Positions 16,378 through 61,452 of a stretch of 62,912 bases of DNA are shown here, in pieces (the first letter of the stretch is position 1; each line of letters begins with the position of its first letter). Both the position numbers and the translations under genes were made by a program. The notes under the pieces were generated by a model, which was not told where the DNA came from, did not search any database, and saw only the letters and a program-made list of their open reading frames with translations. Source of the DNA: Microcaldota archaeon (lineage in GTDB: Archaea > Micrarchaeota > Micrarchaeia > Micrarchaeales > CABMGC01); NCBI GenBank assembly GCA_027365175.1, contig DAHXNY010000004.1, positions 1-62,912 of the forward strand, given 5' to 3'.

Positions 16378-17733
16378 CTGCCTGAACAAGAGGATATCTT
16401 CAGGGCAAATGACATACGCGGGATATATCCAGATACTCTAAACGAGAAAATTGCCGAAGAGATAGGGATGGCATTCGGCACATTTGTCGGGAAAAAGAAG
16501 CGGTTAGCCTTGAGCATGGACATCAGGGAGAGCAGTCCTGTGCTAAAGGAGAGCTTCCTAAAAGGGCTGACGGGGGCAGGGGCAGAGGTATTATACATAG
16601 GCAAGGTTCCCACTCCGTTGCTCTATTTTGCAATAGCCCACTACAAGCTTGACGGCGGAGCTGCGGTAAGCGCAAGCCACAATCCTCCAAAGTGGAACGG
16701 GCTGAAGCTATGCGGACCTATGGGAAGGACGTATGGGGCAGGATTCGGGCAGGAAGAGATAAAGGAGATATACTCCAAGAAGAGATTCGCATACAGGCCA
16801 GGAGGCAGGGTAATTGACATAAGCAAGAAACTCATGAAGGACTATGAGAACTTTCTACTTAAGAGGGCAAAGATAAGGAAACCTCTCAGGATAGGGATAG
16901 ACCCGGGAAACGGCGCAGACTCGCTGATAGCTGCCAATATCCTCAGAAAAGCAGGCATAGCCGTTGTACCTATAAACGACAAGCCGGATGGCAACTTCCC
17001 CTCACGGTCTCCGGAACCGAAACCTGAGAACATAACTGCACTAAGCGATCTTGTCAAGAGCAGGAAGCTCGATTTCGGAGTGGCATTCGACGGCGATGGA
17101 GACAGGGCCATGTTCGTGGATGACACGGGCAGGGCATTCTTCGGGGACATAACCCTTGCCATGATGGTCAAGAATATGGTAAACAAGGGGGATAGGGTAG
17201 TGTACGAATTAAGTTCTTCAAAGGTTGTAGAGGACATGATAAAGCTGAAGAAGGCAAAGGGCGTAAAGGCAAAGACAGGAAGGGCATTCATAATAGACAG
17301 GATGCTGGAGAACAATGCAAAGCTCGGCGGGGAGCACTCGACCCATTTCTACTTCAGCGACGTATATGGTTTTGATGATGCGATATTCGCTGTGATAAAG
17401 ATGGCTGAGCTGACATCGTCAAGCGAAAAAAAGATGTCAGAATTGATGGATGAGCTTCCCAAGTACGAGCGCATAGTCAGCGAATTCGAGGTTAAGGACA
17501 GCGAGAAGTTCATGATAGTGTCGAGAATGAAGGACAGCCTAAAGAAAATGAAAGGTGTAAGAGTCGTAACTATCGAAGGGGTGAAGATGATAGCGGAAGA
17601 CGGGTGGCTGATGGCAAGGGCATCGAACACGACCCCCAAAGTAAAGATAATTGCAGAATCCGCAGACAAAAGGTCCATGGATAGGTTATATACGCTTGCA
17701 ATTTCGGAATTCGAGAAGGCAAAAGGCGCATAG
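16378..17733 (+). CDS. Phosphomannomutase/phosphoglucomutase (starts at CTG)
   Basis: The 451-residue enzyme interconverts hexose 6- and 1-phosphates for glycan precursors. It has the catalytic serine loop SASHNPPKWNG, the metal loop DGDGDR (about 210) and the sugar-binding GEHSTH. The C-terminal phosphate loop is RASNTTPK. The first ATG (16468) would delete the conserved FRANDIRGIYPD strand that opens domain 1. The only way to keep it in frame, after the TGA at 16351, is a non-ATG start. CTG at 16378 lies exactly 5 nt after GGTG (16369-16372), giving MPEQEDIFRANDIRG. It is 33 bp downstream of S11. Confidence 0.9.
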   Translation: MPEQEDIFRANDIRGIYPDTLNEKIAEEIGMAFGTFVGKKKRLALSMDIRESSPVLKESFLKGLTGAGAEVLYIGKVPTPLLYFAIAHYKLDGGAAVSASHNPPKWNGLKLCGPMGRTYGAGFGQEEIKEIYSKKRFAYRPGGRVIDISKKLMKDYENFLLKRAKIRKPLRIGIDPGNGADSLIAANILRKAGIAVVPINDKPDGNFPSRSPEPKPENITALSDLVKSRKLDFGVAFDGDGDRAMFVDDTGRAFFGDITLAMMVKNMVNKGDRVVYELSSSKVVEDMIKLKKAKGVKAKTGRAFIIDRMLENNAKLGGEHSTHFYFSDVYGFDDAIFAVIKMAELTSSSEKKMSELMDELPKYERIVSEFEVKDSEKFMIVSRMKDSLKKMKGVRVVTIEGVKMIAEDGWLMARASNTTPKVKIIAESADKRSMDRLYTLAISEFEKAKGA

Positions 17734-26428: not shown

Positions 26429-28621
26429 ATAAACAAACTGATAATAGCAGAAAAACCAAGCGTAGCGATAAGGATAGCATATTCACTGGCAGACGATGGA
26501 AAGCCGCTGTCATATGTTACTAACGGCGTAAGGTATTATGAGGTTAGGAAGGGAGCTGACACCCTTTACATAGTGGCTGCTGCCGGCCATCTCTTCACAA
26601 TAAGGCAGCACGGAGATTCTGACGTGCCTGTCTTTGACGTAGAATGGGTGGAATCCTACAAGACCAACAAGTCTGCATACTTCACAAAGAAGTACATAGA
26701 CACGATATATGCTGTAGGCAAGAAGTGCTCATTCTACATAAACGCATGCGACTATGACATTGAGGGTACGGTTATAGGGAGCAATCTGATAAAGTATGTC
26801 GTAAATTCGAATGTCAATTCAGAGCTGCCAAAGGCAAGCGTCAAGAGAATGAAATTCTCGACGACTACAAAGCCTGACCTTGTCAAATCCTATGAGAACA
26901 TCTCCGACTTCGATTTCGAGAACTTCTATGCTGGTGAGACGCGCCACAAGCTTGACTGGATGTGGGGAATAAACCTCTCCAGGTCACTAATGAGGGCGAT
27001 ATCTACGCAGGGAGTGAAGAAGATACTCAGCATAGGGCGGGTACAAGGGCCGGCATTGGCCCTTCTTGCAGAGAGGGAGCTTGCAATAAAGGACTTCTCT
27101 CCGAAGGATTACTGGAAGGTATTCGCATTTGCAAACGGCACGGAATTCGAATCGGTAAGAGGCTCCATATTCGACGCGAAGGAAGCCGAATCCATAATAA
27201 ACAATGCCGGTAAGGAGGCAAAGGTCGAATCCGTGGAAAAAAACGTAAAAGAGCACTGGTCGTTCCCTCCATTCGATCTTACCTCTCTGCAGCTGGAGGC
27301 GAGCAGAGTATTCAAGATGGATCCTTCAAGGACCCTCGCTGTCGCGCAGTCTCTTTACGAACGCTCATACATCTCATACCCGAGGACAAGCTCGCAGAAG
27401 CTCCCATTCACGCTTAACTTCAGGAACATACTGAACATGCTCTCAAAGATTGAAGGATACAAGGAAGATGTCCTGAAGCTGATAAACGGCAACAGATTCA
27501 GGCCTCTAGAAGGAAAGAAAGCAGACGAGGCCCACCCTGCAATATATCCTACGGGAGAGGAGCCGAAGAAGCTGACTGCCGAGGAGCAAAGGCTTTACGA
27601 CCTGATAACAAGAAGGTTCCTCGCATGCTTTGCAGAGAGCGCGTCTACGGAGAATAACGAAGTGATAATAAGCATAAGCGATGAAAAGTACAGGGCTTCA
27701 GGGTCAAGGCTTCTCAAGAAAGGATGGATAGAGACATACAGATACTATACTCCAAAGACGAGAGAGCTGCCTGATTTCGGCAGAGGGGACATGCATCCTG
27801 TGGAAAAGATAGAATCAAGGGCGCTTAAGACCGAACCCCCAAGGAGATACAACAAGGCAAGCCTCATATCCACTCTCGAAGAGAAAGAGCTCGGCACAAA
27901 GGCAACAAGGGCGGAGATCATAGACACGCTGTTCAGGAGGGAGTACATAAGGAACTCGCAGATAGAGGTTACCGGGTTTGGGATGAGCATATACGACGCT
28001 CTGCATTCGTACTGCCCTGACATACTGGACGAGCAGCTGACAAGAAAGCTGGAAGAGGATATGGGCAGCATATCAAAAGGAACACTCGAAAGCGATACGG
28101 TGATAAAAGAAGGCAAGGACATAATAACGAAGATCACCTTGATATTCAAGGAGAAGCAGACTGAAATAGGGAAGAGGCTGTCCATGGGGCTGGAAAAGAG
28201 CGAGATGGAAGCAAGCATAGGCAAGTGCAAGTGCGGCGGAGATCTGATAGTGAGAAGGTCTACGGCAGGCAAGTCATTCGTGCAGTGCAATAACTGCCAG
28301 CTCTCTTATCCGCTGCCGCAATATTCATTCGTAAAGCCTACCGGGAAGATATGCGAATCTTGCGGTACGCCTATAGTCAAGGTATTCAGGAGAGGGAAGC
28401 GAGTCTTCCAGATGTGCCTGGATCCAAACTGCGAGACAAAGAAGGACTGGGGCAAGCCAAAGACAGCTGCGCAGATAAAGAGTGAACAAGAAGGAGTGGA
28501 GAAGAAAGAAGACACGCCAGCGGCTAAGAAGCCCATGAAGAAAGCCCCTGTGCGCAAGGCTCGGAAGGAAGCCGATTCAAAAAAGAGGAAAGCAAAGAAG
28601 GCTGCTAAAGCCAGTGAATAA
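26429..28621 (+). CDS. topA: DNA topoisomerase I, type IA (starts at ATA)
   Basis: The 730-residue enzyme relaxes negative supercoils. The Toprim domain opens with KLIIAEKPSVA and holds DYDIEG. The catalytic tyrosine lies in SYPRTSS (about residue 318). The C-terminus has two zinc ribbons (CKCGGD...CNNC and CESCGT...C) and a lysine-rich tail. The first conventional start (GTG 26573) would remove the essential LIIAEKPS strand. The frame upstream is closed by TAG at 26414 and contains no ATG, GTG or TTG before that strand. ATA at 26429 gives MNKLIIAEKPSVA and lies 6 nt after GGTA (26419-26422). Confidence 0.92.
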   Translation: MNKLIIAEKPSVAIRIAYSLADDGKPLSYVTNGVRYYEVRKGADTLYIVAAAGHLFTIRQHGDSDVPVFDVEWVESYKTNKSAYFTKKYIDTIYAVGKKCSFYINACDYDIEGTVIGSNLIKYVVNSNVNSELPKASVKRMKFSTTTKPDLVKSYENISDFDFENFYAGETRHKLDWMWGINLSRSLMRAISTQGVKKILSIGRVQGPALALLAERELAIKDFSPKDYWKVFAFANGTEFESVRGSIFDAKEAESIINNAGKEAKVESVEKNVKEHWSFPPFDLTSLQLEASRVFKMDPSRTLAVAQSLYERSYISYPRTSSQKLPFTLNFRNILNMLSKIEGYKEDVLKLINGNRFRPLEGKKADEAHPAIYPTGEEPKKLTAEEQRLYDLITRRFLACFAESASTENNEVIISISDEKYRASGSRLLKKGWIETYRYYTPKTRELPDFGRGDMHPVEKIESRALKTEPPRRYNKASLISTLEEKELGTKATRAEIIDTLFRREYIRNSQIEVTGFGMSIYDALHSYCPDILDEQLTRKLEEDMGSISKGTLESDTVIKEGKDIITKITLIFKEKQTEIGKRLSMGLEKSEMEASIGKCKCGGDLIVRRSTAGKSFVQCNNCQLSYPLPQYSFVKPTGKICESCGTPIVKVFRRGKRVFQMCLDPNCETKKDWGKPKTAAQIKSEQEGVEKKEDTPAAKKPMKKAPVRKARKEADSKKRKAKKAAKASE

Positions 28622-59975: not shown

Positions 59976-60371
59976 ATGAGTCAGTTTGGATCGCAATTCC
60001 ACGGGAAGTCGCGCAGGAAGCTCAACGGCAGTGGCAAGAAGAAGCTGAAGAATCATGACAAGAAGAGGCATGACATGGGAGGATACTTCATAGCTACGAA
60101 GCTGGGAGATAAGAACAAGGTCAAGGAGGTAAGGGGAAGGGGCGGAGAGAGGAGAAGCAAGCTCCAGTATGCTGGATTCGCAAACCTATTGGTTAACGGC
60201 AAGTACAAGAAGACAAAGATAAAGTCGATTCTTGAATCCAAGGACAACAGGAACTTCGCAAGGCTTAACATAATAACCAAGGGTACGGTAATAGACACCG
60301 ATGATGGCAAGGCGGTAGTCATAAACAGGCCTGGAAAGGAGGGCAGCATAAACGCAAAGAAAGTAGAATAA
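59976..60371 (+). CDS. rps8e: Ribosomal protein S8e
   Basis: The 131-residue protein is the archaeal/eukaryotic S8e of the small subunit. It opens with HGKSRRKLNGSGKKKLKNHD and has GGYFIATKLGD, RGRGGERRSKLQYAGFANLL and the C-terminal ITKGTVIDTDDGKAVVINRPG. The ATG at 59976 follows GTGGT. It is the first gene of a three-gene unit in which both following genes have non-standard starts. The stop TAA directly touches the GGTG of the next gene. Confidence 0.93.
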   Translation: MSQFGSQFHGKSRRKLNGSGKKKLKNHDKKRHDMGGYFIATKLGDKNKVKEVRGRGGERRSKLQYAGFANLLVNGKYKKTKIKSILESKDNRNFARLNIITKGTVIDTDDGKAVVINRPGKEGSINAKKVE

Positions 60372-60380
60372 GGTGTTTGT

Positions 60381-60755
60381 ATACCTTCAAGAGTCTACGT
60401 ATTTGATTCCTCAAAGACAGCAGAGGTAAAGAAGCTAATGGAGTATGATCCTTATCTAGATAAGAGCAAGTCCGAAGAGGAGGTAAGCAAGCTCAAGGAG
60501 GACACGGAGGCAAACATAATATTTGCAAGGCAGGATTATAATATAAAGGACGGCATATCTATGGACTTAGAAAGGGAGAAGGGCTACCTGTGCATTTCGG
60601 CAAACCAGGAGTTCCTGGAGAAGGGGGAGGAGAAGCTGAAGAAGAGCATAGAGGGGCTGCAGCGCGCTGATGAAAAGACCGAGAACAAGGTAATAGAGAT
60701 AATAGAGGCGGAGAGGAATCAGAGCGAACAGGGGCTCGGTGCAATTTTTGGGTAA
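60381..60755 (+). CDS. Hypothetical protein, 124 residues (starts at ATA)
   Basis: I do not know the family. The product is charged and alpha/beta (SRVYVFDSSKTAEVKKLMEY at the start, then ANIIFARQDYNIKDG and a long C-terminal helix). The first ATG (60438) is 19 codons in and would remove a good beta strand, VYVFDSS. ATA at 60381 lies exactly 5 nt after GGTG (60372-60375), and no ATG, GTG or TTG is available in frame before 60438. It ends 4 bp before the UMP kinase start and overlaps its Shine-Dalgarno motif. Confidence 0.75.
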   Translation: MPSRVYVFDSSKTAEVKKLMEYDPYLDKSKSEEEVSKLKEDTEANIIFARQDYNIKDGISMDLEREKGYLCISANQEFLEKGEEKLKKSIEGLQRADEKTENKVIEIIEAERNQSEQGLGAIFG

Positions 60756-60759
60756 TTAA

Positions 60760-61452
60760 ACGAAGAAAACCGTTTGCGTTTCTATAGGCGGAAGCATACT
60801 CTCAAAGGAGAGCGGGATAAATGTGAAATACGTGGAGGAGCTTGCGGTTCTTCTTAGAAAGAGGCTAAAGACCACCAAGTTCATACTTGTCGTAGGTGGA
60901 GGGTACTCCAGCAGATTGTACATAAGGTCGACGAGGAGCATAATCAGCAACAATGCCATACTGGACCAGATAGGGATAGCGTTCACAAGGATAAATGCAC
61001 TGATACTAAAGGACCTGCTCTCAGAGTTCAACGTATATCCCAACATAGTAACTACTATGGAGGAGCTCAATGCGGGGATAACGCTGAGCGATATAGTGAT
61101 AATGGGAGGCATAATCCCCGGAATAACCACCGATTCTGTTGCAATGCTCGCATGCGAGCTTACAGGCTGCAAAGAGATGATAAACGTAAGCAATGAGAGC
61201 TATGTGCATGACAGGCCTGTAATGGAGAAGGGATCGAAGAAGCTTCCGAAGCTAAGCCATCAGCAGCTTGTTGACATAGCAAACAAATATGACGACAGGT
61301 CTGCAGGATCAAACTTCATACTGGATTTCTTTGCTGCAAAGATTGCAAAGAGGTCAAAAATAGACATATTATTTGTCAATGACAGCATAAAAGAGCTGGA
61401 TCTGGTCCTAAGCGGCAAAAAGCACAACGGAAGCGTAGTAAAGGACCAATAG
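60760..61452 (+). CDS. pyrH: UMP kinase (starts at ACG)
   Basis: The 230-residue enzyme phosphorylates UMP to UDP; archaeal forms are about 225. It has VCVSIGGSIL (P-loop-like first strand), VGGGYSSR, the helix with QIGIAFTRINALI, GGIIPGITTDSVAML and the C-terminal GSNFILDFFAAKIA. A GTG at 60823 would cut off the first strand and its glycines. TAA at 60757-60759 closes the frame just before ACG (60760). ACG gives MKKTVCVSIGGSI and lies 5 nt after GGTA (60751-60754). Confidence 0.92.
   Translation, partial: TKKTVCVSIGGSILSKESGINVKYVEELAVLLRKRLKTTKFILVVGGGYSSRLYIRSTRSIISNNAILDQIGIAFTRINALILKDLLSEFNVYPNIVTTMEELNAGITLSDIVIMGGIIPGITTDSVAMLACELTGCKEMINVSNESYVHDRPVMEKGSKKLPKLSHQQLVDIANKYDDRSAGSNFILDFFAAKIAKRSKIDILFVNDSIKELDLVLSGKKHNGSVVKDQ

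Follow-up and report, generated by a model that had tools for sequence, protein, structure and literature searches.

ATA and ACG as probable translation starts of a small S8e-linked gene and a UMP kinase gene in a Micrarchaeota family

Eukaryotic near-cognate initiation and plastid ACG initiation use the codons CUG, ACG, AUU and AUA and involve scanning or RNA editing. In bacteria, non-canonical starts are described for infC (AUU/AUC) and sigR (GTC) (PMC5472188). For prokaryotic GUG and UUG starts, non-AUG codons have been linked to stronger Shine-Dalgarno (SD) sequences, and a survey of 61,358 ancestral AUG starts, which used annotated starts, counted two switches to CUG and one to AUU (both PMC5622118). 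Loss of KsgA/Dim1 in E. coli and Haloferax relaxes start selection, with greater expression of non-AUG genes (PMC7897474). The open-access literature yielded no prior report of non-AUG starts in Micrarchaeota or DPANN, most subscription papers being outside the scope of that search.

The window, the whole stretch of 62,912 nucleotides that we analysed, comes from the 795-kb, about 89% complete MAG of a small symbiotic-type archaeon (genome G000). Within it S8e, a 124-residue protein and UMP kinase are encoded in a compact unit with the following features.

59976..60371, + strand: ribosomal protein S8e gene with an ATG start (Pfam PF01201 and TIGR00307 above cut-off)
60372..60375, + strand: GGTG, SD of the small gene
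60381..60383, + strand: ATA, proposed start codon of the small gene
60381..60755, + strand: gene for the 124-residue protein
60751..60754, + strand: GGTA, weak SD of UMP kinase (GGTAAT versus GGTGAT), overlapping the stop of the preceding gene
60757..60759, + strand: in-frame TAA immediately 5' of the ACG (TGA in G001 and G002)
60760..60762, + strand: ACG, proposed start codon of UMP kinase
60760..61452, + strand: archaeal UMP kinase gene (TIGR02076; PDB 2bmu/2ij9)

The S8e gene stops at TAA 60369-60371 and the small gene at TAA 60753-60755. The native leaders of the two downstream genes are GGTAATTAAACG and GGTGTTTGTATA. Past the S8e stop the in-frame codons of the small gene run GGT GTT TGT ATA CCT TCA AGA GTC TAC, and those of UMP kinase run TAA ACG AAG AAA ACC GTT TGC GTT TCT ATA GGC GGA AGC; there is no in-frame ATG, GTG or TTG before ATG 60438 in the small gene or GTG 60823 in UMP kinase. 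The sequence-only reading had proposed that the two genes start at ATA 60381 and ACG 60760, each 5 nt after an SD motif (GGTG and GGTA) and the latter directly after an in-frame stop. Read from these codons, the predicted N-termini are (M)PSRVYVFDSSK and (M)KKTVCVSIGGSILSK.

Comparison of the locus in MAGs of six species of one genus (G000, the window genome, to G005) bore out both proposals. In the small-gene start column G005 has ATT and the other five species have ATA, with AGGTG upstream in all six. The UMP kinase column is ACG in G000, G001, G002, G003 and G005, and the alignment of close relatives that the sequence-only reading had suggested as a check places an ATG of G004 in that same column. 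An ordinary start of orthologues is likewise aligned with the ATA, as the small gene begins with ATG in many genera. At both genes the conserved N-terminus holds no usual codon, the proposed start is kept in relatives and the SD lies at the proper distance, the SD of UMP kinase being the weaker. The UMP kinase start is found 4 nt past the stop of the preceding gene in 6/6 species, and the bases directly 5' of it vary (TAA, TGA, CTC, CCT, TCT). The downstream usual codons vary within the genus: ATG 60438 is replaced by ATA in G003 and by CTT in G004, and in place of GTG 60823 the five other species have GTA.

As the window is a MAG contig and either codon is one base off ATG, an error of sequencing or assembly at both sites has to be weighed. 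It is refuted by the five species with the same codons in independent MAGs, whose flanking bases differ and whose UMP kinases are 75-86% identical, and by similar starts in a dozen other genes and in another genus. The sequence-only reading had argued that two such codons in succession make random error less likely, and we consider an error virtually excluded. The small gene also shares the S8e frame across the TAA in the window, and G003 and G005 have an in-frame TTG or GTG 5' of the ACG, so that readthrough of the S8e stop might produce the small protein, and translation of UMP kinase might begin upstream, at an overlapping start. However, a 2-nt difference between S8e and the small gene in G001 shifts their relative frame and leaves the GGTG-N5-ATA spacing intact, the fusion is also broken by frame in G004, and a stop stands directly 5' of the ACG in G000, G001 and G002. 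This route is extremely improbable.

Gene finders would pick 60438 and 60823, and the resulting shorter proteins can be judged by what they would lack. UMP kinase read from the ACG scores 162.8 bits with TIGR02076 (NCBIfam cut-off 158.05) with the N-terminal GGS segment present, its Pfam AA_kinase match begins at residue 4 and the P. furiosus UMPK structures (2bmu/2ij9) align from residue 6; hence a start at 60823, which is residue 22, would lose the GGSI segment. The ACG thus gives the N-terminus expected of a UMP kinase, as had been claimed. In nearly all of the readable UMP kinases of other genera an ATG (in one case GTG) stands 2-4 codons 5' of an [IV]CIS.GG motif. In the AlphaFold model of the small protein (pLDDT 88), strand beta-1 spans residues 3-9 and would be absent after a start at 60438. 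Both the GGSI segment and beta-1 are conserved, and neither usual codon is conserved in the genus, in agreement with the earlier claim that the usual starts truncate conserved N-termini; translation from them is very improbable.

The small S8e-linked protein is near-universal, with an orthologue in 59/60 Micrarchaeota genomes searched, yet matches no known family. It gave no Pfam or NCBIfam match, no convincing PDB relative by profile search, no good match by fold comparison (best E 0.13) and no relative in the viral contigs searched.

Across the order the first residue of the small gene is encoded by ATG, TTG, GTG, ATA, ATT or ACG, which under the standard code would be Met, Leu, Val, Ile or Thr. 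The column varies as a start codon would, and unlike an amino acid. Within its own family 13 genomes, from 8 genera, have a clearly non-canonical start, a count that leaves aside four ambiguous genomes with a usual codon nearby (G006, G014, G026 and G031). The sister family has 0/23 non-canonical starts in the small gene, the only gene tested there. Without correction for phylogeny, Fisher tests of the difference between the families gave p 0.0006 when genomes were counted and 0.013 when genera were counted.

We then searched for conserved genes without a usual start in the homologous N-terminus, using reciprocal best ORFs between G000, most of G002 from the same genus and G032, a complete single-contig genome of another genus in the family; all genomes but G032 are fragmented MAGs. 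Antisense shadow ORFs dominated the initial lists and were filtered out, and the final count was curated by hand. G000 has 14 such genes, 13 of which were seen in G002 as well. They are listed with their candidate start codons; the first two lie, like the small gene and UMP kinase, in the window.

26429..28621, + strand: DNA topoisomerase IA, ATA (ATT in G002, aligned ATG in G032; 48 codons without a usual start)
16378..17733, + strand: phosphoglucomutase/phosphomannomutase, GGTG-N5-CTG (30 codons without a usual start)
G000: FEN1, ATA
G000: RNase HII, ATT
G000: small S8e-linked gene, ATA
G000: UMP kinase, ACG
G000: PAC2, CTG
G000: SufBD-like protein, CTG
G000: ribosomal protein S17, CTG
G000: ribosomal protein S26e, CTG
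G000: signal-peptide-peptidase-like protein, CTG (absent from the portion of G002 compared)
G000: Nop5, GTA
G000: 327-residue protein, ACG
G000: RNase P p30-like protein, CTG (our own reading of its identity, without Pfam support)

GTA is two bases away from ATG. Pfam domains begin 5' of the first usual codon in four of these genes: in RNase HII profile position 1 falls at residue 4 (first usual codon at 42), in topoisomerase IA Toprim position 1 at residue 3 (48), in PAC2 position 1 at residue 18 (53) and in phosphomannomutase position 3 at residue 7 (30). Eleven of the genes came from the comparison with G032, in which about 375 genes were testable, for a crude minimum of about 3%; the survey is blind to non-canonical starts close to a usual codon. 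In G032 itself, the starts of PolD large subunit, Top6B, S4 and dCTP deaminase are ACG in a GGTG-N5-ACG arrangement, where the aligned codon of G000 is ATG, and aIF2alpha has an ACG start aligned with ATG in G000. ACG is the commonest non-canonical start codon of G032, whose GC content is 56% (45% in G000), and it is only a suggestion that base composition steers codon choice. Two whole-genome enrichment tests with different filters were weak or non-significant (p 0.18 for G000, 0.014 for G032) because of small counts, the double-anchored test being underpowered.

The 16S rRNA ends in ...GATCACCTC, for which the expected SD is GAGGTGAT. A run of at least 4 bases matching GAGGTGAT, with GGTG beginning 9 nt 5' of the codon (d=9), is present in 10/11 of the genes found by the G032 comparison, which had been picked for absence of a usual start, although the SD helped pick the start positions of PAC2, the SufBD-like protein and the 327-residue protein. 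For the seven genes whose start was placed only by alignment the figure is 6/7 (p 0.001). At any other register tested a matching run occurs in 0-2 of the 11 genes, and among genes with aligned ATG starts the d=9 run is found in 33/145 (p 1e-5 versus 10/11). Hence the weak codons accompany strong, exactly positioned SDs; topoisomerase IA is without the exact register and the SD of UMP kinase is weak (GGTAAT).

Taking together the codons, their conservation, the absence of usual starts, the fixed geometry and the spread over genes and genera, we hold it highly probable that ATA 60381 and ACG 60760 are real starts, placed by the SD and read as near-cognate codons by Met-tRNAi, and that such starts are used family-wide. 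The most likely mechanism is that a GGUG-type SD exactly 5 nt upstream would bring ATA or ACG to the P site and that the usual initiator Met-tRNA, with anticodon CAU, would accept the mismatched codon there; the proteins would then still begin with Met. At UMP kinase, ribosomes that have just terminated at the stop 4 nt upstream may also contribute, as the constant 4-nt distance in all six species suggests termination-reinitiation. By the same route ATA, ATT, CTG, ACG and perhaps GTA would start a few percent of the conserved genes in this Micrarchaeota family.

The translation machinery encoded by G000 bears on a different route, C-to-U editing of ACG to AUG or a special initiator tRNA. Such editing makes start codons in plant organelles (PMC12548569), but a change of C would explain only ACG and not ATA, ATT or CTG. 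A single initiator-type tRNA is encoded in G000; its anticodon is CAU, its anticodon stem GGG:CCC and its first pair A-U. No second initiator tRNA with another anticodon was found in this about 89% complete genome, which argues against a special tRNA. We regard either form of this explanation as quite improbable. A 95-nt tRNA-Ile with anticodon UAU is encoded at G000:C11:59845-59939 (-), so that AUA may have a dedicated tRNA.

Loss of aIF1 (SUI1) as a cause was rejected, the gene being present in G000 and 58/60 relatives, as was loss of KsgA/Dim1 (PF00398 in G000 and 59/60 genomes). Two obvious gene-loss routes to relaxed start selection are thereby excluded. G000 has two strong PF00398 genes of KsgA/Dim1 type (C23:59595-60212 and C2:16786-17361), as do G003 and G004; most relatives have one.

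Weak starts might alternatively serve gene-specific regulation of the infC type, holding particular proteins low or autoregulated. There are bacterial precedents in infC (AUU) and sigR (GTC) (PMC5472188), and the small gene is weakly started in many genera and adjoins S8e. However, the affected genes are housekeeping genes of various kinds with strong SDs, unlike one regulon, and the small gene starts with ATG in many other genera, which makes this explanation unlikely. Extending the SD-placed, near-cognate reading, we propose tentatively, and with rather less than even confidence, that relaxed start identity is a trait of the family's initiation machinery, in which SD distance would define the start and AUA, AUU, AUC, CUG, ACG and GUA, native ACG included, would be ordinary for housekeeping genes.

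Starts of the ATA and ACG type are missed by gene finders, and this whole archaeal family seems to use them. Since gene finders and proteome databases assume ATG, GTG or TTG, it is likely that essential proteins of the family are annotated with truncated N-termini, among them topoisomerase IA, RNase HII and UMP kinase, and in the second genus PolD and S4. The family offers a natural system for how archaeal initiation separates start from non-start codons, and useful contrast comes from a sister family without the feature in the gene tested, with aIF1, Dim1 and initiator tRNA all ordinary-looking.

Like infC and sigR, the starts described here are chromosomal, differ from ATG, GTG and TTG, have been overlooked by gene finders and are kept in relatives. 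Whereas infC and sigR are single regulated genes under the bacterial IF3 check, this archaeal genome has at least 14 mostly housekeeping genes, with ATA, CTG and ACG among their starts. As with GUG and UUG starts, a mismatch to the CAU anticodon would be tolerated given a good SD, yet set against the handful of switches in the survey of ancestral AUG starts the extent is roughly 3% of testable genes in G000. Unlike the KsgA/Dim1-loss strains, G000 retains a KsgA/Dim1 gene. The codon set is that of eukaryotic and plastid near-cognate starts, from which the Micrarchaeota family differs by its fixed SD distance. What appears to be new is the lineage-wide scale and the native ACG starts.
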